From assembly GCA_020283715.1 (NCBI GenBank), contig JAIQCW010000108.1, forward strand, positions 1 through 12,520: DNA of 12,520 bases. Direction: 5' to 3'. The position numbers and the translations under genes were made by a program. Each line of letters begins with the position of its first letter. Position 1 is the stretch's first letter. This document shows, piece by piece, positions 1 to 12,520 of this stretch. The stretch is from Cytauxzoon felis (taxonomy: Eukaryota > Apicomplexa > Aconoidasida > Piroplasmida > Theileriidae). The notes beneath the pieces are model-generated. The model did not search any database. It was not told the origin of the DNA and saw only the letters and a program-made list of their open reading frames with translations.

Positions 1-68
1 CAGTGGTTGTAACCTCGGGTGAAGAGCTCTCCGCAAGAGGAATAGAGTTAGATTGGACATCAGGTGAA
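1..68. repeat. Intronic inverted-arm element, partial (cluster 1)
   Basis: GC-richer sequence unlike the AT-rich flanks. The terminal motif GGACATCAGGTGA (55-67) is the complement of the family end TCCACYTGAGGTCC. A second diverged copy, AACCTCGGGTGA, lies at 11-22, and the hairpin-module remnant AGAGCTCTCCGCAAGAG lies between them. The cluster continues beyond the left edge. It follows a plausible phase-0 donor (GTCAATTC, 94 down to 87) of the Mrp-family gene, so I place it in that gene's third intron. Only one end is visible. Confidence 0.7.
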
Positions 69-94
69 TGTTTATTGTGATTGTATGAATTGAC

Positions 95-883
95 TTGTAA
101 GAGTTCATTTATGGATTGTTGTAGATTTGTTATGATTGGTAGTTTGATATAATTATGTATTTTATATTCATTACAGATTTGTTGTATTTTCGACTTGCCG
201 AAAATATCATTGATTGATTGGCATTTTATGCATTTGTGATAAGACATGTTTTCAACCATTGCGATGATAGGAATTTTATATTCCTGGAATAATTTAATAC
301 CTTTGACAACATCATTATAGCTAAATGGCAATGTGTAGATGTATATTAATAGAAATATACCTTAGTGTATTTGGTATAGTAATGAGTATAGACCCATCGA
401 CATGTATATTTTCAACTAGAGATATAATTACATCACTAGTACCAGGAGGTAAATCTAATATTAAATAATCTAAATTATCCCAATTTGTTTTATATATCAT
501 TTCATAACATAATTGATCTATAATTGGACCTCTATAAGCATTATATCCCTATAGAGATATATAAATATATAGAGTTTATAACATACTAAATCATATTTTT
601 TAGCTAAAAATTCGCTTGACATTATTTTAATACCATGAATTTCTTTAGGTTGTAATAATATCATCTTATTATCTTCATAATTTATACCATCATCTATGTC
701 TACATCCTTCCATACTACAGGCTTACGATCTAATGATAATAATTCTACTATACTAGGACCACATATATCTAAATCACATATTCCTATCTTATACCCTTTG
801 CTAGACATATGTATACCTAATAATACCGATATAGTAGATTTACCTACACCACCCTTACAGCTATGTATAGCCAAGAGTTTCAT
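95..883 (-). CDS. Mrp/NBP35-family P-loop ATPase (3' end beyond window)
   Basis: A scaffold-type ATPase of the Mrp/NBP35 family, which carries and transfers Fe-S clusters to apoproteins. Exons are 883-587, 548-361 and 320-95; the introns of 38 and 40 nt are GT-AG and phase-consistent. The protein opens with MKLLAI and a deviant Walker A, SCKGGVGKST, at residues 8-17. DLDICGPS (switch-I type), a YRGP segment and the LDLPPGTSD Walker B region follow. Exon 3 has ENMSYHKCIKC (residues 185-195), whose CxxC is the bridging cluster ligand of the family. NBP35-type N-terminal cysteines are absent, so it resembles Mrp/ApbC or Ind1 more than canonical NBP35. I end exon 3 at CAA before GTCAATTC (phase 0), because a repeat cluster starts 27 bases further on. 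The frame stays open into the repeat to the edge, so a repeat-encoded tail cannot be excluded. The start lies only 76 bases after the stop of the next gene upstream. Confidence 0.88.
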
Positions 884-959
884 AAGATTAAATTATTCAT
901 GTATATATACAAGATAAAATTAAATTATAATCTACAATTAACCTCACTACACTACACAT

Positions 960-3270
960 CTACTTCTTTGTAGGCACTTTAAAACATATAGTCGGCTCAT
1001 GTATCAATTTACACTTTTTTATTACATCACTCTTTCCATCATGTTTACAATCTATTAATATAAAATTAATTAAAAATTATTAACATACCATCAGGATTAT
1101 GTATCGTTAATCTCTTCTCATCATCAACCAATGACTTCATACAACTATCCCCAATAAATTTAAATACATCATCTATAAATAAATCCTGAAGGAAATTTAA
1201 CCCTTTAGATTCTTGTACTATATCAAATCTATAATTCCTCATCAATAGAACTCACCAAATTCCAACGGCTCCATCGGCTTTGGATTCAACAACAACTCAA
1301 ATTTATTCTCTACTATACTCGTATTTTTAATCTCATTATAATTCACATCCGTCAAATCCTTCGTCACCCTAGACATGTGCACCGTCATCAACATCTGAAT
1401 CTATAAATAAGAATTTATCATAACCACATATCGAAGATTACTCCACCGAGGTCCAATACAACTCTGCAACTACACCTCTATTCCACTGCCGTGGCGCCTC
1501 TTTTATTTACTTCCCCCTTCGCTTCCCTGAGATCAGCTGCGGGTATTCCACTTGAGGTTACATCCAACACATCCTTAGCACCATCTTCCATCATTCCTAT
1601 GATGGATGATCCATCACAACCCTCATCACCGCCACGATCTCTGGGAGTGGCTATACCCTTTAGGGATGACTAAATAAGGAAGCTGTCTGCAAGACAATGA
1701 GAGGTTGGTGAAGTGTAGGATTGGACCTCGGTGGAGTAAGCATCAATGATAGCAACATTACTAGTAATACCTGTCGGAGTGTTTGAAATAGATTAGTGAT
1801 CCAATAATCTCTTTCATTAATTTGCGATAGTGACCAGCATGCACCAACGAGATTCCTATAAAATTGAATACACCCTTTATAAAACTTACAAAAAAATTCC
1901 TCTAGTCTCATTTAATGTACGGTATGATAACAAATTTATATTTTCATTTATATAAATTAAATGTAATTTCATATGAAGACATGAAAATAATTCAATCGCT
2001 TTACTACTAAAAAACACCTCCGTCTCCTTAATTGCATATTTCATCGCCTCTGATACATCACCACCATTATGCATCTACAATTTTATAATCACAATAATAC
2101 CTAAACTACCTTGAATAATTCCACAAAATACTCATTTGATACCCTCTCCAATAACTCATAACCACCATACTCCGTTGCCTATATTATATTTACAATCAAA
2201 GAAGAATAGTCCACTTGAGGTTGTCTTGCAGACAGCTCCTTCCATTTACTTCCCCTTCCAGCTCCCGTAGATCGCTTCCAGGTATTCCACTTGAGGTCTG
2301 TTCTTCCGGGTTAACAATGCCACGATCTCTGGGAGTGGCTATACCGTTTACGGGGAGGTAATTGGAAGAGGCCTCCACGGCGAGTGGAACACTGGTTGTG
2401 ACCTCAGTGGAAGAGAGTTGGATTATGGTTTATTTCATCAAACCTGTGGTAGTGCATGATGATTATTGAAGCATTCTTTGATTCTTGGAAGAATATTGAG
2501 TTCTAAAGTGTAATGGATGTTAATTTGTTTACGTACGTTTATATCCGAGGTACAGGTGTAGATTTCTCAATAGTATATTATCGCATTCGTATTGTAGGTG
2601 GCTGAATCTGTATTTAAATATGATGGACGGTTAAGGGTAGGTGCAAACCTTTGACAGTGGAAGATATGTTGTAATAGGACAGGTAGCCAATTTTTCGGTT
2701 CATCGTGTAAATCATGTCCGGTGATTTCATTGATTGAGAATGCGAGGCAGACTCTGACATAGTTGGCGACGGCTCTTGGTGTGGTGAGATTTTGTGCAGC
2801 AGACATGTATGACTTGGCAAAGTAGTTGAGTAGGGTATTACTATTCATAATACTGGTCATATTTTGTATATATAATCTATTTAATAATTTGATTATATGT
2901 TCATTATTATTATGGAATATGATTTTAGCTACTCCATTTATATATAGATCACCTTGGCATTTTTTTAATGCATAAACTTCTACGATATCCATAAGCATTT
3001 TACCACCTTCTACAGACATACGTTCATATACTCTATATATTATAAATAATAAAATTTATATGAAATTTACCCTGAACCATTATGTGCTACATCTCTAAAT
3101 ATTTCTTCGAATGCTAATTTAGGTAAATTTGTACCTAGATATCCAAACCATTTTTTAAGGTCTTTCCATACAGCACATTTTCTATGATCACATGGTTTTG
3201 GAAATGTACGATTATTATATTTAAATGATTCATTATTATTAATCCATGGACAATTATCTTCGTGCTCCAT
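960..3270 (-). CDS. Unrecognised 472-residue, ten-exon protein
   Basis: I do not recognise this protein. Ten exons join without a phase error: 3270-3071, 3032-2649, 2607-2537, 2502-2444, 2178-2110, 2074-1890, 1855-1771, 1400-1256, 1217-1089 and 1051-960, ending in TAG. A stop codon directly precedes the ATG. Seven introns are 34-41 nt; the other two, of 265 and 370 nt, hold repeat clusters. The first 40 residues carry a Cys/His-containing stretch (NCPWINN, KPCDHRKCAVW). The rest is mostly helical with leucine-rich stretches (for example IIKLLNRLYIQN and NILLRNLHLYLGY), which resembles helical-repeat proteins of organelle RNA metabolism, but no RAP or PPR signature is clear. Four cysteines cluster near the C-terminus. 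No signal peptide or membrane segment is evident. The weakest join is intron 8 (1255-1218), which has a nearer acceptor that would bring in a stop. Without splicing, this locus would look like several unrelated small ORFs. Confidence 0.75.
1438..1739. repeat. Intronic inverted-arm element with perfect 20-bp ends (cluster 2)
   Basis: The two ends are exact inverted copies of TTACTCCACCGAGGTCCAAT, at 1438-1457 and 1720-1739. If the outer TTA/TAA is treated as target, the element begins CTCCACC and is flanked by TA on both sides. The left arm has CCACTGCCGTGG (a CCAC-N4-GTGG hairpin), a TATTTACTTCCCCC box and GAGATCAGCTGCGG, and ends in an inner TTCCACTTGAGGT. The right arm has the GTCT-TGC-AGAC hairpin, a TATTTAGTCATCCC box and GCCACTCCCAGAGATCGTGGC. 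A 70-base core with GATGGATGATCCATC separates them. The whole element lies in the 370-nt intron 1770-1401 of the unrecognised gene, about 30 nt inside the donor and 37 nt before the acceptor. Confidence 0.88.
2210..2411. repeat. Intronic inverted-arm element (cluster 3)
   Basis: A 202-bp element bounded by TCCACTTGAGGTT on the left and GACCTCAGTGGA on the right. The left arm carries GTCTTGCAGACAGCT, the box CATTTACTTCCCC, CTCCCGTAGATCGCTTCC and an inner TTCCACTTGAGGTC. The right arm, read inverted, carries the hairpin CCACTCGCCGTGG, AATTACCTCCCCG, ACGGTATAGCC and ACTCCCAGAGATCGTGGC. The short core has GTTCTTCCGGGTTAAC, which recurs in clusters 8 and 9. It lies in the 265-nt intron 2443-2179, with about 32 nt of AT-rich sequence on either side. 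Removing the intron joins CTACCACAG to GCAACGGAG in phase 0. Confidence 0.88.
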
Positions 3271-3476
3271 TTATTTACAAGTATAATAATCTTGAATAGA
3301 TGTGCACTCTCTGATTCCATTATGTTAACATGGCACCTATACTTCACACATTTAGACAAAATTAAAACTTAATGTTAGAATATTAATTTATAAATATATA
3401 AATATAATTATATATATAAGATTATAATTTATAAGTTAAATGTGTATAGAATCCGATTATATAAGATTACTACATG
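3271..3476. other. Intergenic gap, 206 bp, AT-rich
   Basis: Lies between the stop of GPI8 and the start of the unrecognised gene, both on the minus strand. It must carry the promoter of the downstream gene and the 3' processing signals of GPI8. I see only A/T runs and no repeat element, RNA gene or clear motif. Confidence 0.6.
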
Positions 3477-5535
3477 TTAAAATAATTTATGTTGGAATAA
3501 TATTAATATAATTATAATTATAAAGATAAAAAATTTTATTTTAAATTTATTTTTATTTAATTCTAATATAGATTTATCATAAATACCATTTAAATACATC
3601 ATCTCATATAATCGGGTAACATCTAATTCTTCCTTGTAATTATAATCATAATTTATAAAAATTTCCCCATCATCTTTAATTTTATTCTCATCATATGGGA
3701 ATTTATATGAATTAAAATATATAGTGCGATAATTAAATATATATTCACCCAAGTATAATTTTTTCTCATTAGTACCCAATACATTATTAATCTTATAAGC
3801 TATTTCTTCATCTGGTAAATTCCTTTGGAAAAATCTTAACATTTGATTAAATGATAATATTGATACAGCTACTTTTGTTTTTATAGTTAATGCTGATTGT
3901 AATACAGAATTAAGAAAGCCATGTAAACAAAATGTAAATTTATCTACAGTTGATACAGATATAAAATGATTAGGATTATGACTAAAACTACTTTCACCTC
4001 TTATAGATGATGCTAACCATACCATAGGAATCTCATTATCAATCCTTTCAAACATAGTAGATGCTTGACATGTATCCAATATAGTAAATATCTTCATATT
4101 CGGATACTTAATATACATCTCCTTATAATATTTACCCAATTCTAATGATGATATAAAATCCATAGCTTGAACCTGTAAATATGAATCACCACCGTGACCG
4201 GTCAAATATATCATACGCCTAATACGATCATCAGAACCTATATTTATATACATGTCAAAATATAATAATTTATTATGCAAATGAGGTTAAATCCTACTCT
4301 CTTTTACATTCGCCGTTCCATCTGAGGTCGTCTTGCAGACAGCTCTCCACCTGAGGTCATTCCACTCGCCGTGGAGGCCTCTTCTATTTAGTTCCCCCTA
4401 CGCTTCCCGGAGATCAGCTGCGGGCTCCACCTGAGGTTATAAACCTAATCTCGGCGAGATACGTCTAAAGTGACGGAATGCATGTTTGAAGGGATATCTC
4501 AATGAATATAAAATGGAATGAAGTGAGGATGATAAAATTCAATACAATCATCAAAGTCCTCTTGAATGAAGTATTAACATCTAAAATTCATTCAATATTC
4601 ATTGAATAATCTTCATGAGTTTCCCCAGAAATTGAGAATTTCCTCAAATTTCAGAGGTAAAAATGAATTATTGAAATTAATACAAAATGACATCAGGTGG
4701 AAGAGTGAAAGTAGTATTGTAACCTCAAGTGGAAGTGGAATACCTGGAAGCGATCTACGGGAGCTGAAAGGGGAACTAAAAGGAAGAGGCTCCACGCCTA
4801 GTGGAAAGACATCAAGTGGAGCTCAAGTGGAAGATGAGGCTATAACATCGTGTGGAATGATTGTGTTGATAAAATTAAATGTTATGAGACTGACCATAAT
4901 ATGTTGGTAATTTTGAGCATTTAGGGTATTTATTAGGATATCTTTGTGTGAGCATGTATCTGAATTCATTTTTACTTGTATTATAGCCTTTATATGTTAT
5001 TAATACATCTTTAGGGTAGACATTGTATGTATCATTTTCTAATTCTCCATTATACATATCTTGATCTAGATATGATGTAACATATATTCGGCCTATGTAT
5101 GATAATTAATGATGGATTTAATAACAAACCTGCTGCAGAATTTGTAGGATGGCATATACAAGGCTCAGGTAACATTGTTATAAAATTGCGATTAGTTACT
5201 AGACCATGTTTATAAAAATGCGATAGTATGGCTAATGTATTACCAGTATGTCTATAATTGTAGTAGAATCTTGAAGTGGTGGCAAATATAGCTGATACTT
5301 CTTTATAATGTTTTAATATTTCATTAACATTTTCATTTAAATTATTAATTTTATTTTTAATATAATTAACATTAATTATATTATTTTGTACGATTATATT
5401 TTTATAATTATTTTTATACTTGTCTAGTAGACCAAAGGTATCTGGACCTATAGGTACTATGATATCTGGTAGAACATATTCTATATTAAATTGACATAAT
5501 GTATAATTTAACATATAAATTAATATAATATACAT
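3477..5535 (-). CDS. GPI8: GPI-anchor transamidase catalytic subunit (GPI8/PIG-K)
   Basis: The cysteine protease of the ER-lumenal GPI transamidase, family C13, which cleaves the C-terminal signal of proproteins and attaches the GPI anchor. Exons are 5535-5130, 5092-4895 and 4237-3477, giving 454 residues. It starts with a hydrophobic signal peptide (MYIILIYMLN). The conserved N-terminal SRFYYNYRHTGNTLA and PEPCICHPTN segments (exon 1) and the VLITYKGYN segment (exon 2) follow, and then SDDRIRRMIYLTGHGGD with catalytic His216. Catalytic Cys258 is in TILDTCQAST, and WLASSIRGESS and a Cys/Phe-rich HGFLNS stretch come after it. The last 19 residues form a membrane anchor, as in the type I topology of the family. 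Intron 1 is 37 nt (5129-5093). Intron 2 is 657 nt (4894-4238), falls 14 codons before the catalytic His and holds a repeat cluster. The start is 73 bases after the Yip gene stop. Confidence 0.95.
4311..4858. repeat. Composite intronic element with long inverted arms (cluster 4)
   Basis: The largest cluster, inside GPI8 intron 2. The left arm (about 4311-4437) has TTCCATCTGAGGTC, GTCTTGCAGACAGCTC, an inner TCCACCTGAGGTC, the hairpin CCACTCGCCGTGG, TATTTAGTTCCCCC and GAGATCAGCTGCGGG. The right arm (4690-4858), read inverted, has TTCCACTTGAGC, TCCACTTGATGTC, the hairpin CCACTAGGCGTGG, TTTTAGTTCCCC, CTCCCGTAGATCGCTTCC and TTCCACTTGAGGTT. A long AT-rich core separates the arms and is entered separately. 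The intron keeps about 35 nt of its own sequence at the donor side and 70 nt at the acceptor side. Confidence 0.85.
4426..4701 (+). repeat. Long AT-rich core module, copy A
   Basis: A 276-bp unit bounded by TCCACCTGAGGT and CATCAGGTGGA. It contains TAAAGTGACGGAAT, TGGAATGAAGTGAGGATGA and TTTCCCCAGAAATT. A second copy with clear overall identity, inverted on the + strand, occupies 6910-7176 in the NF-YB intron. Frames are closed or short, so no protein is supported. Finding it in two introns in opposite orientation relative to host transcription indicates mobility rather than intron duplication. Confidence 0.85.
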
Positions 5536-5608
5536 TTTCTATATAAAAAAAATTATTATGAATATAGCATCAAAGTGTAGTGATATTAAAGTCGCCTCAT
5601 ATCAATAG

Positions 5609-6377
5609 TCAATTGACCATAGATACAATTGTAACTATACAGTACATAAAAAAAATAGGTGTATAAACCATATGGAGTTTATCTCGTGTTGTATTTGCCT
5701 TTATAAATTTATAACATACTAAAAAATTTTATATTCATATCAACATTTCAACATACATAAGCCACCATATATGCTTGAAGGTATTATTAGCAACGGCTTA
5801 CATATATCTGGCATGAATCTTGTAACCAATGTAGTCAGACATGATGGTAATAATCCATATAAAACTATTGATGTCACAGTATAATAATGTCTAAAGCATA
5901 AATGTTTATGAAATTAAACCTATCTTCCTTTATATGTTATCAACTTACACAAAAGAGTCGAGTAGACAGGCATTTAGACCTGCAATAAGTGATCCGACCC
6001 ATAGAAATAGAAAAAAGTAGACATATGCTCGATTTTGTTCATAATTATCTTCAATACATGTAGGTAAATAGATGAACCTATAGAGCTATATTATATACCT
6101 TCAATGTGTAGCCTTACAATGGATAGAAGATAGTTATTATAAATGGACCAATTAAATCCCCTATATAATTGAAATTAAAATAAATATAAAAATTAATTTT
6201 TATTATACATTCTTTTAATTCTTGACAATTTTGTAAAAAACATGATTTCCTCAAGACATATTTATACTTGCCAAATGTATACCCCAAGTCATTTAACTAG
6301 AAGTATAAATAAAATATATATAATCTCACTCAACATACTATAGCCTCTAATATAGAATCATTATTTTCAAGTATCAT
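5609..6377 (-). CDS. Yip1-domain membrane protein (YIPF6/Yip4-like)
   Basis: A multi-pass membrane protein of the Yip/YIPF family, which acts with Rab GTPases in ER-Golgi traffic. Six exons join in phase: 6377-6339, 6296-6209, 6160-6118, 6077-5949, 5890-5757 and 5718-5609, encoding 180 residues and a TGA stop. The introns are 42, 48, 40, 58 and 38 nt, and none carries a repeat. The family layout is visible: a short N-terminal helix (ILEAILNDLGYTFGKYK), the hallmark WDLIGPFI entering the first of five membrane segments, VYFFLFLWVGSLIAGLNA, then SIVLYGLLPSC matching the usual GY-LLP motif, a short segment ending YGGL, and a last segment in YTPIFFMYCIV. The acidic or proline-rich N-terminal extension seen in many homologues is missing; the ATG sits 79 bases after the NF-YB stop, which leaves little room for another exon. 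YIPF6 is a closer match than YIPF5, but the subfamily is inference. Confidence 0.85.
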
Positions 6378-6455
6378 TTTAAATTATTATATTCCCATTT
6401 TATAGTGAAATTAGACATTATAGCATGTATGGTGTAATTGTCATGCAAGTACCCA

Positions 6456-8151
6456 TCACTTGGTGTAATTATAATTATATTCCTCATCATTATCTGCGAG
6501 ATAATTACTCGCCTCTACATCATCATCTAACTTTGTTACGTGCTGCTTATTATTTTGAACGTTCTGATTCGCTGCCGCCTCCTTCATCTCCTTCCATTTT
6601 ATATGATACGTCTTCAATGGCTTATCATAATGCTCAAAACCTAATCTATTCATAGCCAATAATATGTCATCCGCACTTAAAGTCTTCCTACGCTCCATCG
6701 TACATCTGTCACTCGCCTATTGATATAATAAATAATAAAATTAATTAAATGATACAATGAAGAACAATATGATATATTATCTACATCTTCCATTATCTTA
6801 CATAGAACTCTCCACTTGAGGTCCAATCACCATCTTTCGTCGTCCTGCCGTCAGCTCTTCCATTTACTTCCCCTTCCAGCTCCCGTAGATCGCTTCCAGG
6901 TATTCCACCTCCACTTGAGGTCTAATGTCACTAATGTATTTTCATCTCCAAAATTTGAAGGAAATCCTTAATTTCTGGGGAAACTAGTGACAATATCTCA
7001 ATAACTATTGGATGAAATTTTAATGTTAATATCTCATTCAAGAGGTTTTTGATGATTCTATTGTGTTTACTCATCCTCACTTCATTCCAATTTATATTCA
7101 TTGAGTTATACCGACAAACATGAATTCCGTCACTTTAGTCATATCTCGTTGAAATAAGGTTTATAACCTGGGTGGAAACCGAAAGCGATCTATGGGAGCT
7201 GGAAGGGGAAGTAAATGGAGGAGCTGACGGCAGGACGAAGAAAGGTTGTAACCTCAAGTGGAGAGCCGTCTGCAAGACAATCGAATGATATTCAATGGTA
7301 CAATATGAATAATATTTTAGGATGTATGACAAACCTCACTGGCGATGAATTGTATGAATTCTGTGACGCAATCTCGTATCATATCTTTTGCTTGTTTGGC
7401 AATTTTGGCGCTATTTGGCAACACACTTTTCATGAGTCGACCAATATTAGCAATGGGTAGTGATCTAATTAAAAATATATAAATATAATGTGATAATTAT
7501 TATGCTTTATCATTAACATACGTATCATTTTCGGAGATTTCTTTTCTCATGAAACTTTGTGTATTATCATTATCTTCATTAATATTATCATCTAAATTTG
7601 TGTGATTATAGTAGGAATCCATGTATTTCCTATCATTATTAACATGTGTAGTATAATTGTGTTCAAGTATCCTATCATTATTGTATTGTATGAAATTATT
7701 TGATGGTTGTTGTTGTGATATGAATTGTTGTGGTTGTTGTATATAATGTTGTGTTGGATGATTTTGATAATATAATGTGGTATTATGACAATGTCCATTG
7801 GTATTTGTATTATTGTTTCCATCATCATCTAAAAGGTTAGAGAATATGAATATTGAAGAAAAAAAATAATATACCATTTATATTTTGTTGTGTTAAATGG
7901 TCATATTGTATATTATCATTTATATTAAAATTTTGTGTTAATGTATTGAAATATTTCAATTTGAATAAGACATCATTTTTGTTATCATTTAAATTATCAC
8001 ATAAAATTTTATGATTAAATAAATCATAATTATTTAATGAATCTTGACTTAAAATTTCATCATTTATATAATTAGATTCTATTATCCTTTGATTATTATT
8101 ATTATGTGGATTTTGTATCACTGCTTCTAATTGCGATTCATTATTGTACAT
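6456..8151 (-). CDS. NF-YB / HAP3 histone-fold transcription factor subunit
   Basis: The B subunit of the CCAAT-binding factor NF-Y, a nuclear histone-fold protein that pairs with NF-YC. Exons are 8151-7875, 7828-7522, 7464-7335 and 6716-6456, with 324 residues and a TGA stop. Residues 1-194 are low complexity, rich in Asn with Gln and His runs (exons 1 and 2). The conserved core starts at residue 196 with [16 protein letters not shown], continues with [15 protein letters not shown] and [10 protein letters not shown], then [22 protein letters not shown] and [13 protein letters not shown], which is the full NF-YB fold. The ASDRC...RRKT segment separates it from Dr1/NC2-beta and archaeal histones. 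Introns 1 and 2 are 46 and 57 nt. Intron 3 (7334-6717, 618 nt) cuts the fold between helix 2 and the ASD motif in phase 0 and contains a repeat cluster. The start is only 44 bases below the stop of the next gene upstream. Confidence 0.93.
6811..7280. repeat. Composite intronic element with ~95-bp inverted arms (cluster 5)
   Basis: The clearest view of the architecture. The left arm (6811-6910) and right arm (7171-7263, inverted) match over almost their whole length: TCCACTTGAGGT, then CTTTCGTCGTCCTGCCGTCAG or its near copy, CTCTTCCATTTACTTCCCC, TTCCAGCTCCCGTAGATCGC (CCCATAGATCGC in the right arm), and an inner TCCACC. Between them is the long AT core (6910-7176). The tail 7264-7280 holds an extra hairpin, GTCTGCAAGAC. 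The cluster lies in NF-YB intron 3, about 55 nt from the donor and 94 nt from the acceptor. Confidence 0.88.
6910..7176 (-). repeat. Long AT-rich core module, copy B
   Basis: A 267-bp unit from TCCACTTGAGGTC to AACCTGGGTGGA. Its complement aligns with the core in the GPI8 intron: shared blocks include CTAAAGTGACGGAAT, CTCAATGAATATAAA, TGGAATGAAGTGAGGATGA, CCTCTTGAATGA and AGTTTCCCCAGAAATT. I judge identity at roughly three quarters by eye, with small indels, so the copies are not very recent. Confidence 0.85.
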
Positions 8152-8195
8152 TATTTCTCATCACTCAATCAATTAATACGAATCAGAAATTTAAA

Positions 8196-9045
8196 TTATA
8201 GTAAATTTATAATCGCCCAATTTTTATTTTTATCTAATATCATTACCATATCATTAATTAAATACCACCACTTTTGTTAACACATTCACCCACTATCGAT
8301 CCCACACGCCCACACCCATCAATATAATTCTGATAATTTCCATCAATTTTAAGTCTACATTCACTTACACATCACATTCGTTAGTCTTCCTTAATCTTCT
8401 TATATATAATATATACTCTTCAACTCCATACACCACCATCAATACATATGTCTTTCGCGTATAATCTACCTTATATACTAGACTATTACAAGTAATTATG
8501 TGTATTATAAAGTGTTAATGTACGTGGAGTTTATATTTTTTGTAACAAAGTTGCAACCTGATCCAGTACACATCATGATGAGAGGTATCGAACTTAGGCA
8601 ATGATGCAAATCTATACTTGAGGTTAAAGTGATTGTTCAGACTGGAATCGGTCCTGCAGACAGCCATTCTATTTAGTTATCCCTCAAACTCCCGTAGATC
8701 GTTTTCGGGTTGTATATCTCCAATTATTCAGAGGGTACGTGGAATGCCATTAAAGGTGATATATAAGCGGATAATTGGGAGTAGGAGGACTAACAAAATT
8801 TCATAAGTGAACTGTACTGGGAATGAAGAATAGTACTGGACCTCAGGTAGAGACCTCAAGTGGAATACCCGAAGCTGATCTCAGGGAAGCGGAGGGGGAA
8901 GTAATTAAAAGAGGCACCACGCCTAGTGGCAACGACTAAACTTTAATTATATCCATGATCATGTATGATATGACTTTATTTACAATGTCAAAGCATCTGC
9001 ATTTGGATATACTATAATATTACCCTCATGTGTGGTGGGTTGAGG
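8196..9045 (-). CDS. Unrecognised minus-strand gene, 5' exon not found
   Basis: A probable gene reconstructed from exons 9045-8984, 8592-8524, 8482-8371, 8329-8266 and 8233-8196 (TAA). The last three introns (41, 41 and 32 nt) have good GT-AG ends and keep phase. The intron 8983-8593 (391 nt) holds a repeat cluster. The joined frame reads as ordinary protein, with segments such as NIIVYPNADALT, SIPLIMMCTGSGCNFV, KVDYTRKTYVLMVVYG and DGCGRVGSIVGEC. It is Cys- and Val-rich, possibly extracytoplasmic, but I recognise no family and infer no function. No start codon fits upstream of 9045, so at least one 5' exon is missing or the model is wrong there. The three 3' exons are the firmest part. A plus-strand reading of the same region gives only scraps ending at early stops. 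The stop lies 44 bases before NF-YB, the same spacing style as the neighbours. Confidence 0.5.
8614..8930. repeat. Intronic inverted-arm element (cluster 6)
   Basis: The left end is the degenerate ATACTTGAGGT (8614-8624). The left arm has CTGCAGACAGCC, CTATTTAGTTATCCC and CTCCCGTAGATCG. The right arm (to 8930, inverted) has the hairpin CCACTAGGCGTGG, TTAATTACTTCCCCC, GAGATCAGCTTCGGG and TTCCACTTGAGGTC. The core contains a facing pair, CTCCAATTAT (about 8721) and ATAATTGGGAG (about 8780), so it is itself a fold-back. It lies in the 391-nt intron of the uncertain minus-strand gene. Confidence 0.8.
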
Positions 9046-9248
9046 CTCTTAACCCCTCAAATACATGTATGACTATAACTCTAATAATATTTGATAGATA
9101 TTCTCCATTAGTTTTATAATAAATATAAATAATAATTCAATTAATTAACAATTAATATAAAGTGATTAAAAACATTCCCCCATTAATGAAATTCTATGGA
9201 ATCAAACTCAAGGTGTAGAGATATTATAGTGCAATATTAATATATAAA
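9046..9248. other. Divergent intergenic gap, about 200 bp
   Basis: Separates the minus-strand block from the plus-strand block and should contain two start regions, plus any missing 5' exon of the minus-strand gene. It is very AT-rich. A small inverted repeat, TTGAGG/CCTCAA, spans 9040-9060. No repeat element of the intronic family is present. Confidence 0.5.
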
Positions 9249-10290
9249 ATGACAGTAGAATCATCTAGCCATGGCCATGTAGAAGATTACAGGCAGCAAT
9301 ATGGTGAGCGTAGGCATATTAATGTGACATTAATGGTAAGTTGATTAGGTTAAATATTTTTATACCATAGAATGCTGATCAAAACTACGATGATGTTTAT
9401 CAACCATTAGGTGATAGGTATGCTTTAAACTTGGACCTATTAATTCAATAATCAGCGCAACTACTAATGATAGAAGTTTTAACACATCACCCGTCGGTAG
9501 TGTATTATCACCATTCAATGACTCACAGTACGTATTTTATTACTACATTATATATAATGATTCGTGTTTTTTACAAAAAATGGCGGGTTTTTAATCAATG
9601 AAAATTCCTTCCATAAGAACAATTGACCACTTCCTACTCACCACCTCTCTTTCACTCGCCGTTCCAACTGACGCGTCCTACCATCACCTTCTCTACATGA
9701 AGTTGTTCCACTCGCCTCCACCCGAGGACGTCTTGCAGACAGCTCTTCTAATTACCTCCCTCTAAAGAGTAGAGCCACTCCCGGAGATCGTGGTGAAGGT
9801 AGTGATGGATCATCCATCATGGGAATGATGGAAGATGGTGCTAAGGATGTGTTGGATGTAACCTCGAGTGGAGTACCTGGAAGCGATCTACGGGAGCTGG
9901 AAGGGGAAGTAAATAGAAGAGGCCACCACGGCGAGTGGAACTGGGTTTGATTTCGGTGGATTGGAGGGTTGGAATTGGAGTATGATTGCACCTCAACAAT
10001 ATCCTCTACTTAATTGACTTCATGTACTTATCCCTTTCGATGTGGCTCATGTTATATTTTTTTCAGGGCATTTACTGGGGTCTCTGGTTTCTTTAGTTCG
10101 TTGTACAGGGGTGTAGCCAATCGTTTATATACGGCATAGTAAGTTTGAATATATTTACTTACATTATTCTTTTAGTGATGTTGTAACAAAGACATTCGCC
10201 ACATTAACGACAACAGAAGCTGCTGCATTTTCTCTATTTGTATCAGTCTTTCTATCGGCTGTACTTTTTTTAATCTTCGCCTTATTTTAA
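9249..10290 (+). CDS. Small tail-anchored membrane protein, unrecognised
   Basis: Five exons join in phase: 9249-9335, 9371-9417, 9474-9527, 10067-10138 and 10176-10290 (TAA), giving 124 residues. The short introns are 35, 56 and 37 nt. Intron 3 (9528-10066, 539 nt) contains a repeat cluster and ends in a strong T-tract followed by CAG. The N-terminal half is hydrophilic (MTVESSSHGHVEDYRQQ, then Ser/Pro-rich FNTSPVGSVLSPFNDS). An amphipathic stretch, GFFSSLYRGVANRLYTAYD, follows. The protein ends in one hydrophobic segment (residues 105-124, ending LFLIFALF) right at the C-terminus, the layout of tail-anchored proteins such as short SNAREs. No SNARE heptad pattern is convincing, so no family is assigned. 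It likely faces the cytosol with the tail in an ER, Golgi or organelle membrane, by inference from topology. Confidence 0.75.
9652..9960. repeat. Intronic inverted-arm element (cluster 7)
   Basis: The left arm is longer and more mixed than usual: TCACTCGCCGTTCC, TTCCACTCGCC, TCCACCCGAGGAC, GTCTTGCAGACAGCTCTTC, TAATTACCTCCCTC, and GCCACTCCCGGAGATCGTGG. The right arm (to 9960, inverted) has TCCACCGAAATC, the hairpin CCACTCGCCGTGG, CTATTTACTTCCCC, CTCCCGTAGATCGCTTCC and a TCCACTCGAGGTTAC inner end. Its core, with GATGGATCATCCATC and GATGGAAGATGGTGC, matches the core of cluster 2 almost base for base. It lies in intron 3 of the tail-anchored gene. Confidence 0.87.
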
Positions 10291-10352
10291 TTTTTGTATA
10301 ATGTGGGTATCCATACATTTTATTCATTTTATATTTTCTTGTATAAAATTAA

Positions 10353-11528
10353 ATGTCTATTAATATTTATATTTTATTTATCATTTTAAATATCGCAAAT
10401 TGTGTTTTATATAAATCAGCTCCTTTATCTTCACCGCCTTCTTCAGAGACTGACCCTTGTATATCAAATGCAAAGGGTATAATAAAATATGTAAATGACC
10501 ATAAAGTATGAATGTGTATAATATATTATTAATAATATTAATAGAACTTTTCAAATAGTTGTCAAGTTACTCTAATTTTAAATGGAAAAACTGCTAATCT
10601 TCTAAAGTGTGTACGACATCTAACAACACATTCACATTATTTAGAGGTAATGAAGAATTCAAGACTATAAAATTGAAAAATATCGTAACACCAATTCTAA
10701 TTCTACCAAATGATAACAGCTGTCTACTTATCAAAGGTAATTTTATCCACTTTTAATACATTGAAACTTCAGATATTAATGGAGATGGAACGATACTATG
10801 GTTAGTCTTAAACAAACAAATACAATGAAATGGACATATGTAATACAATCTTGTTTTCTTATTTCATCCAACTGATGTTCAATCACTATCTTCTCCACTA
10901 GGCGTGGTGCCTCTTTTAATTACTTCCCCCTCCGCTTCCCTGAGATCAGCTACGGGTTCCACTTGAGGTTACATTACGATCATTATCATCATGTTCTTCC
11001 GGGTTAACGTTCTTTGTTCCTCCGGGTAGAATTCCTGTTCTTAGGGGTTGGCATCTTCGTTCTTCCGAGTTAACATACCGAGGATGATCTATGGGAATCC
11101 GAGGGGAGTAAATAAAGAAGCTGACGGCAGGATAGACCTCAAGTGGAAGACAACGTTGATATTCAATATAGACATTCATTTTTATATTTATTCTATTGAT
11201 GTATTGATATTATTATATATAGTTCATCTAATGAGTATTCGTGTAATTCATGGTGGTTGGAATTGACTAAGCAGATATTATGTATGAATCGTGGTCGTAT
11301 GCGTAATGAGGTGTATGGTGAGACATCATTAGAGGAGCAGCAAGAGGTAATAGATATGATTATATGATATTAAATGTATAGGATTTATTACATTTATCTG
11401 GTGGTAAAGATATACGTGGTATAAATATCCATATGAATGATGAGAATATCCCACAGAGTAAGTATAATTATTTATATATGATATATTAATATATAATTAT
11501 TATAGTTAAAGTTCATTATAATAAATGA
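10353..11528 (+). CDS. Predicted secreted protein with DxNxDG loop, unrecognised
   Basis: Seven exons join in phase: 10353-10505, 10545-10606, 10645-10736, 10773-10800, 11223-11346, 11382-11457 and 11506-11528 (TGA), giving 185 residues. The short introns are 39, 38, 36, 35 and 48 nt. Intron 4 (10801-11222, 422 nt) contains a repeat cluster. The protein opens with a hydrophobic signal peptide (MSINIYILFIILNIANCVL) and a Ser/Pro-rich spacer. A beta-type region follows, with QVTLILNGKTANLLKG, IVTPILILPND and LLIKDINGDGTILC; the DINGDG stretch (residues 103-108) resembles the calcium loops of FG-GAP/VCBS and EF-type proteins. Cysteines at DPC, NSC, NDNSC, ILC and EYSC suggest disulfides. The C-terminal third is charged. 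The 28-nt exon 4 and the donor TATG/GTTAGT are chosen because they are the only phase match to exon 5. Export is a prediction and no function is assigned. Confidence 0.72.
10867..11148. repeat. Intronic inverted-arm element (cluster 8)
   Basis: It opens with a diverged end, TCCAACTGATGTTCAATC (10867-10884). The hairpin CCACTAGGCGTGG, TTAATTACTTCCCCC, GAGATCAGCTACGGG and TTCCACTTGAGGTTAC follow. The right end is GACCTCAAGTGGA (11136-11148). The right arm, read inverted, has CTGCCGTCAGCTTC, TTTATTTACTCCCC and CATAGATCATCC. The core carries GTTCTTCCGGGTTAAC, CCTCCGGGTAGAATTCC and TGTTCTTAGGGGTTG. It lies in intron 4 of the secreted-protein gene. Confidence 0.86.
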
Positions 11529-11620
11529 AATTGATTTATTATTCTAGTATAATTTTTTTTATAAATATGTGTTATAGTGTGTAATATAAATTATATGTGT
11601 GTTATTTATTTTAATACACT

Positions 11621-12077
11621 ATGAAAAGTGGATTCCTTATATCTAATAATCCACGTGTATCATTGTTGAGTAGTTCTAATAATGTTAATCCTAAAAGTCC
11701 TGATCGTAAGGTATACACATTAATATTATCATTCAACTATATATTTTAATTATATTATTTAGTTTAATATAGATGATTTTATACTTGAACGTAACATCGG
11801 TAATGGAAATTTTTCTCAAGTTTGGCATGTTACACTTAAATCTAATCCATTACAATCATATGCATTAAAAATATATAATAAAGTAATTATTATTAATCAT
11901 TTATATATTATACTTCTATCTATAGAAGAAAGTATTAAAATCAAATCAAACAAAATCTGTAGTACAAGAAAGAGATTCATTAAAAAAATTAAATGAACCC
12001 GGTAATAAACATGTAATTAAATTAATCGATACCTTCAAAGATAATAATAATGTCTATCTCATATATGAATTCATAGA
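11621..12077 (+). CDS. Ser/Thr protein kinase, PDK1-like AGC N-lobe (3' end beyond window)
   Basis: The first 120 codons of a protein kinase. Exons are 11621-11710, 11763-11882 and 11926-12077, with introns of 52 and 43 nt. A Ser/Asn/Pro-rich leader of about 30 residues is followed by the kinase fold: FILERNIGNGNFSQVW gives the glycine loop (GNGNFSQV, residues 43-50), YALKIYNKKKV gives the ATP-binding lysine (Lys66), and SVVQERDSLKKL gives the helix-C glutamate (Glu85). HVIKLIDTFKD, then VYLIYEFIE, reaches the hinge. The KIYNKKKV...VVQERDSL pattern resembles PDK1 most among AGC kinases, but the activation loop and any PH domain lie beyond the edge, so the subfamily is tentative. Exon 3 ends in phase 2 at GA/GTAAGT, and a repeat cluster starts 74 bases inside the following intron. 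Confidence 0.9.
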
Positions 12078-12151
12078 GTAAGTTTTTTAACCATTAAATC
12101 TATATATACAACCTAATACACTATATTATCCATCTTACTTTACATCAAAAT

Positions 12152-12520
12152 TCCACCTGAGGTCCAATCCTATTCTTCTTCCACTCGCCGTGGAGGCCTC
12201 TTCTAATTACCTCACCGTAAACGGTATAGCCACTCCCAGAGATCGTGGCATTGTTAACCCGGAAGAACGTAAATTTTCAACCCCTAAGAACAGGAATTCT
12301 ACCCGGAGGAACAGACATCCACTCGAGGTTCAATACTATTTTCTCGAACTTTCTTCGTACTGCCGTCAGCTCTCCTAATTACCTATCTCTAAAGAGTATA
12401 GCCACTCCCGGAGATCGTGGCAATGAGGAAGGTGGTACTGGACCTCAAGTGGACTACCCGCAGCTGATCTCTGGGAAGCGAAGGGGGAAGTAATCAGAAG
12501 AGCTCTCTGCAGGAGAACGT
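12152..12520. repeat. Intronic inverted-arm element, partial (cluster 9)
   Basis: It opens with TCCACCTGAGGTCCAATCC (12152-12170). Then come the hairpin CCACTCGCCGTGG, TAATTACCTCACCG, ACGGTATAGCC, ACTCCCAGAGATCGTGGC, GTTAACCCGGAAGAAC, CCCCTAAGAACAGGAATTC and TCCACTCGAGGTTC. A second arm set starts there (CTGCCGTCAGCTC, TAATTACCTATCTC, ACTCCCGGAGATCGTGGC). An inverted arm runs to the edge (GACCTCAAGTGGA, GCAGCTGATC, GGGGGAAGTAATCAGAAGAG, CTCTGCAGGAG). It lies in the third intron of the kinase gene. The outer right end is not in view. Confidence 0.85.

Follow-up and report, generated by a model that had tools for sequence, protein, structure and literature searches.

Rickettsia palindromic elements (RPE) are dispersed palindromes that occur within protein-coding genes, where they fit the reading frame, as well as elsewhere in the genome, and that are tolerated in conserved proteins. 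They were reportedly described by Ogata in 2000 and 2002, and palindromic-element models are included in NCBIfam; a scan of five element-bearing proteins of Cytauxzoon felis against this collection, with E-values up to 1, matched none of these models. The genome of C. felis, a parasite of cats, harbors a dispersed family of modular palindromic elements with mirrored arms, and this family resembles RPE (mentioned in PMC6649704) in that a dispersed palindrome is found in frame in coding sequence and is tolerated in conserved proteins, whereas it differs in its residence in a nuclear eukaryotic genome with introns, in its larger size (up to 571 bp), in its swappable boxes, and in its share of 16% of the sampled DNA. 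Judged by this analogy, the element likely works as a nuclear counterpart of RPE. MITEs and foldback elements are likewise short and dispersed, with mirrored arms and without an enzyme of their own, but the Cytauxzoon element has ragged ends, no target-site duplication above chance at the outer boxes of 71 elements, and in-frame exon copies, and no partner transposase was found in searches of the genome for five families, namely DDE_3, DDE_Tnp_4 and MULE, whose controls worked, and piggyBac and hAT, whose controls were silent. Introners, including those of Amoebophrya (PMC7789003), share with the element the dispersal, the richness in introns and the inverted repeats; in contrast to them, the ends of the Cytauxzoon element rarely coincide with splice sites, and copies are also found in exons and intergenic DNA. 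Apicomplexa, Theileria and Babesia are never mentioned in the main text of an introner survey (PMC9860276). PARCELs are palindromic coding repeats of microbes including eukaryotes, but they are described as tandem 25-residue repeats (PMC2996958), whereas the Cytauxzoon element mostly occurs as single dispersed insertions. As tested features of introners and MITEs were not found in it, we class the element as neither of the two. With a probability of roughly 77%, we are dealing with a modular palindromic family that is likely mobile and whose copies, according to predicted gene models, reside between genes, within introns and, with a fitting frame, also in exons, where their translation is predicted.

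The window, that is, the whole stretch of DNA from which the analysis started (12,520 nt, an entire contig), was combined with 20 further stretches (168.9 kb) into a working sample of 181,428 bases, and the genome that was scanned comprises 8,623,106 bases in 181 contigs. Self-comparison of the sample yielded 104 core clusters covering 25,452 bases, which after extension and joining became 101 clusters with 28,376 bases, or 15.6% of the sample; if the density of the sample holds throughout the genome, roughly 4,800 clusters are expected. Outside these main counts, 19 clusters were found in five extra 5-kb stretches, and three in a sixth extra stretch of 3 kb that was centred on a chosen match. 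The share of element DNA reaches 26% in L020, and there are no elements at all in L028, a 10-kb stretch of the largest contig, and in the 222 bases of L015, both from the main sample. A tandem repeat at 9515-9916 of L026, which encodes YAGEVGEYAG-like units, formed a false cluster of the element family. In the window, ten GC-rich cores were detected, the deepest point of each having matches at 18-96 further sites of the sample (E 1e-4 or better), and extension and joining merged them into nine clusters; the nine clusters of related GC-richer sequence in the sequence-only reading of the window were thus recovered. Rfam and tRNA scans of the window gave no matches.

Every element is mirrored. 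From the outside to the inside, an arm begins with an A box (TCCACYTGAGGT), followed by a swap box, of which there are four kinds, then by sequence resembling CTCTTCTATTTACTTCCCC or CTCTTCTAATTACC, a core, and often a second A box, and the mirrored A boxes represent terminal inverted repeats. The arm cores are of three types, C, D, and R. Among 62 elements with facing arms, C is paired with D or R in 48, and the remaining 14, which contain only D and R arms, constitute the longer class. Which swap box is present does not depend on the kind of arm (chi-square p 0.53). In 52 elements in which both boxes are known, 33 different swap-box combinations are realized, and the same box is found on both sides in 10 of these 52, with 13.5 expected. 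In the C arm, a 4-bp hairpin stem is fully paired in 100 of 102 distinct arms, whereas shuffling the stem partners leaves on average 45 and at most 58 arms fully paired. Because only few C-arm stem types exist (CTCT/AGAG, CCGT/ACGG, CCCT/AGGG, and CCCA/TGGG), these paired changes may go back to a small number of events.

Folding predictions give whole elements a higher stability than shuffled sequences, with median z values of -3.63 for 11 exonic, -5.45 for 44 intronic, and -4.94 for 14 intergenic copies. Such folding, together with stems that are kept by paired changes, would also be in line with a repeat whose arms are maintained by selection for a host role, for example the folding together of splice sites, and not for the spread of the element itself. 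That the two flanks of the same intron pair more than mismatched flanks (40 introns; none of 200 shuffles reached the mean) points in the same direction, as does the conservation of the arms in all compartments, the arms of non-exonic copies being as alike to one another as those of exonic copies. However, identical arm kinds occur outside introns as well, both in exons and between genes, intronic copies show no fixed orientation, and the density is as uneven as the difference between L028 and L020 demonstrates, and we therefore regard a host-functional repeat as unlikely.

All gene models are predictions of a gene finder that we wrote and trained on the sample itself. The predicted introns have a median length of 40 nt and GTAWGT-like donors, and the coding fraction outside the elements amounts to 68%; the protein-coding share of the genome given in print is 66-69% (PMC3748084). 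For the assignment of compartment labels, the bases of the elements were masked by N, so that the true length was kept and the flanks alone were scored. By this procedure, 53 of the 101 clusters were labelled intron, 25 intergenic, 22 exon, and one mixed, with the exon count depending on the scoring of the element bases (1, 16, or 25 of 101 in three settings). A piecewise classification at cut points is biased to introns at the cut ends and was used for four clear cases only. The copy density is about 2.5 per kb in introns (21.5 kb outside elements) and 0.9 per kb in intergenic DNA (27.2 kb), a nearly threefold difference that, together with the 53 intron labels, argues for introns as the preferred but not the exclusive location. 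The enrichment over intergenic DNA that the sequence-only reading had implied thus holds, whereas the confinement to introns does not. Exons account for 104.6 kb of the sample and yet contain only 15-22 of the clusters, and all 15 confident exon copies fit the reading frame and share one orientation, which agrees with the earlier idea that insertions elsewhere are purged. The statement that the orientation relative to the host gene is not fixed was also borne out for introns, as 18 C arms in introns have the sense of the host gene and 15 the opposite one.

The preference for introns could be taken as an indication of introners, that is, of an element that carries splice sites and makes new introns on landing in exons, and introns are indeed the commonest place of the family. 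Introners are, moreover, known in an alveolate parasite, Amoebophrya (PMC7789003), and element-bearing introns retain a median of 79 nt outside the element (54 introns), which exceeds what insertion into existing introns would predict, since the length-weighted median of element-free introns is 44 nt. Eroded element ends may account for this excess. We nevertheless consider it highly improbable that the element is an introner, as had been proposed among other options, because in almost every one of 45 introns the element does not reach the splice sites, the flanks being broad with 5' distances of 26-199 nt and the 3' distance falling to 6 nt and 9 nt in two exceptions, because the outer boxes carry no flanking repeat above chance, and because exon copies are in frame and one is retained in the cDNA of the gene cf76 (see below). 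Direct repeats between intron flanks were not significant (p 0.055; 40 introns). It was also considered whether the element could be a small exon between two 40-nt introns, and this idea was abandoned in view of the broad flank lengths and because 57 of 66 intron-class clusters of at least 150 bp have stops in all sense frames.

In the window, the trained gene finder placed six of the nine clusters in introns, five of them stably between runs, and two in intergenic DNA, so that the claim of an exclusively intronic location was only partly correct. An element with a D arm and a C arm at 1440-1737 lies in the intron 1395-1770 of a gene at 960-3270 (minus strand). Its label is unstable, as it was assigned to an intron in one run and to exon or intergenic DNA in three others, with a margin of 0.5 in the final one; we keep it as intronic because all three sense frames contain stops, and it is nonetheless one of the 22 exon labels. 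The same gene contains in its intron 2179-2443 an element with an R arm and a C arm at 2210-2422, which has one open sense frame. Two members of the long class follow, one with D and R arms and no C arm at 4282-4856, in an intron at about 4238-4894 of a GPI8-like peptidase C13 gene (minus strand), and one with two R arms at 6792-7283, in an intron at about 6717-7334 of an NF-YB gene (minus strand), the 3' end of which was placed slightly differently by gene-finder runs (6727). As an independent check of the latter intron, the Pfam profile CBFD_NFYB_HMF runs unbroken across the hand-joined exons. The flanks of this NF-YB intron (6727-7334) share an imperfect direct repeat of ~30 nt, the best among 40 introns. 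On the plus strand, an element with the C arm at the 5' side and the R arm at the 3' side is found at 9704-9965 in the intron 9528-10066, and another one at 10867-11148 in the intron 10801-11222.

Intergenic gaps were said to be free of elements, but two partial copies at 8613-8711 and 8820-8935 are situated in the gap 8152-9248 between two divergent genes. This gap comprises 1,097 bp between two start codons and has 25-32 stops in each of the six frames, and the two copies may alternatively reside in a 5' UTR intron. In the sample as a whole, the 25 intergenic labels likewise speak against element-free gaps. Exons were also thought to be devoid of elements, and this view had to be given up. 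At the beginning of the window, on the minus strand, the frame of a NUBPL-like gene runs into the element coding frame (..NKHSPDVQSNSIPLAESSSPEVTTT) in bases 1 to about 60, giving a cut-off exonic copy at 1-60 that is in frame with the gene and reads SPDVQSNSIPLAESSSPEVTTT. The assignment is based on the open reading frame 2-361 (minus strand), a frame check, and the NUBPL Pfam match of the gene, and positions 5-38 repeat 7244-7277 at 82%; the fragment is below the cluster threshold and not among the 101 clusters. At the other end of the window, an element with two C arms at 12149-12517 lies 3' of the GT ending a kinase exon and was labelled intron in two gene-finder runs and intergenic in three. 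Both ends of the contig are thus inside elements, which suggests that the family probably breaks the assembly.

We regarded an exon copy as confident when its margin was above 2.5, its true frame was the best one, and its sense frame was free of stops, which applied to 15 of the 22 exon labels, two of these 15 belonging to a single insert in RPC1, the large subunit of RNA polymerase III. One of the other labels had a margin above 2.5 but contained stops and was dropped, and six, including 1440-1737 of the window, had a low margin, a misfit frame, or an edge position. All 15 confident copies were also exonic when the element was scored neutrally with stops enforced. All of them fit the frame of the gene, contain no stop, and have the same orientation, and they have in common a peptide of the type PPEV..ATPGDRG..ADLREAEGEVN..TSSG, into which they are likely translated as far as can be predicted from the frame. 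In four clusters, both flanks were independently exonic on one strand, and all four were frame-compatible, with one stop-free frame through the element. For exon calls that were based on the flanks only, with margins of 4.5 or more, the true length was the best frame in 14 of 17 (chance 1 in 3, p 4.7e-5), and a sense frame without stops is present in all 14; two half elements and a stretch of tandem repeats make up the three misfits, and over all margins the frame fits in 19 of 32. A copy in L025 extends over 571 bases without a stop in one sense frame, with 15-16 stops in the other two. Since these exon-labelled clusters are stop-free and in frame, the first idea, which was that of intron insertions or introners, had to be rejected.

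The orientation of the exon copies is nearly fixed. All 29 arms of confident exon copies (13 C, 10 D, and 6 R) are in the sense of the gene. Genome-wide, with an exon copy of the sample as the query, the sense peptide was located inside open frames of at least 250 aa in 58 of the best 150 scored among 3,303 candidates, corresponding to 53 distinct frames when those with equal contig and length are merged, and one of the 58 has two stops inside; the antisense peptide was located inside such open frames in 3 of the best 150 scored among 1,831 candidates. One of these three antisense cases, at 296-2755 of L032, is a copy inside an 819-aa open frame, and this open frame makes it an exception to the orientation rule. 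Differences of exon-copy arms from the consensus fall on third codon positions in 62 of 129 cases, as compared to 141 of 424 in other copies (p 0.003), a lean that is absent in D arms alone (7 of 25) and that we treat as supporting evidence only, since arms that belong to the same element cannot count as independent and 11 arms of uncertain or mixed status are omitted from the count. The hosts of exon copies include RPC1, a helicase, cf76, and proteins with AP2 and TFIIS domains; Pfam domains identify AP2-domain, CW zinc finger, and TFIIS-domain proteins among the hosts, and four of seven scanned element-bearing proteins have no domain. In RPC1, 139 residues (~80 of them in two called clusters) take the place of the 4 residues between positions 626 and 631 of human RPC1, and for the insert of the helicase, the comparison with solved structures was too weak for a placement. 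The protein predicted at 1725-5965 of L018 starts with a cysteine-rich part, which is followed by a part containing a long exon copy, and it probably represents two genes that were fused by the gene finder.

Among proteins, the element peptide matches best the C. felis surface antigen cf76, which we find at C114:6540-8708 with 100% identity over 723 aa; the published position is contig00195:6540-8711 (PMC6310948). The cf76 gene has been called single-exon, and its ORF of 2172 bp was amplified at full genomic length from cDNA, cloned, and sequenced; RT-PCR in the same study was performed on DNase-treated and checked RNA (PMC3748084). Two of the published primers match inside element 1, and the full-length cDNA in combination with these primers indicates that the element stays in the cf76 mRNA. 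This bears on the possibility that exon copies are partly spliced out as in-frame introns, in which case the open frame would merely guard against missed splicing. The RNA evidence comes from one host gene, and one sense frame is open in 9 of the 66 intron-class clusters of at least 150 bp, three of which were later labelled exonic, both of which would be compatible with removable introns; the cf76 cDNA clone at its full genomic 2172 bp with two primers inside the element, and the third-position lean of the exon copies, argue for retention instead, and removable introns are therefore very unlikely in our view.

The two cf76 proteins, which were the only matches in element-peptide searches among proteins of about 150-2150 aa that required shared 5-residue words, differ predominantly in element 1, where 60 of 101 aligned columns are identical and gaps of 14, 9, and 5 residues occur, as opposed to 165/178 identical positions before element 1, 296/301 between the elements, 88/88 in element 2, and 62/62 thereafter. 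An element-peptide search among proteins of about 152-483 aa gave no match. A 30 bp tandem repeat in the C-terminal region of cf76 is known to vary among isolates (PMC3748084), and this published repeat may correspond to the sequence EADGRNVTSGG that recurs in element 2. With sera of survivors, the C-terminal region was the most reactive one, and the N-terminal and central regions were weaker (PMC3748084). As the weaker regions include parts of element 1, the element need not be the main epitope.

How could a modular palindromic family with in-frame exon copies come about? We consider it likely that the family spread as a mobile element. The single match to a reverse transcriptase in the genome is the telomerase gene at 2-2521 of L031. 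We propose that copies would insert with little regard to genes and that selection would then sort them. A copy that lands in an exon in the stop-free orientation and frame would add a hydrophilic peptide of up to about 190 residues, and since one strand has a stop-free frame, an exon copy in that orientation and frame can be tolerated, whereas other exon insertions would mostly be lost. Copies in introns would be spliced away in either orientation. Gene-blind insertion with subsequent selection would explain the free orientation in introns, the fixed frame and near-fixed orientation in exons, and the low number of exon copies, but it leaves the excess in introns over intergenic DNA unexplained. 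Gene conversion or recombination between copies, of which thousands are expected, would alter the box make-up, and such an exchange of boxes would account for the free box combinations and for the differences between the cf76 alleles. It may well be that the paired hairpins are kept because they serve in mobility or exchange. A more far-reaching version, which we put forward tentatively and would not bet on, is that of a selfish translated hairpin of interchangeable boxes that are traded among thousands of copies, by which a peptide-shuffling engine would rewrite surface-exposed loops of hundreds of proteins, including cf76.

The family was absent from the open-access literature searched, and a description may exist elsewhere. 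The sections of PMC3748084 that were covered do not mention it, the words 'repeat' and 'intron' never occur in the main text of PMC6310948, and a term search of PMC10058880 did not bring it up. Among the titles listed in the open-access literature, eukaryotic palindromic elements were represented by PARCELs and mitochondrial palindromes.

In conclusion, mobile palindromes that are tolerated inside proteins are already known from Rickettsia, and a nuclear genome with introns makes it possible to compare the selection on one and the same element across exons, introns, and intergenic DNA. For C. felis, the family may explain a part of the assembly fragmentation, and as stretches of the vaccine candidate cf76 belong to a genome-wide repeat, antibodies against them could cross-react with many proteins of the parasite.
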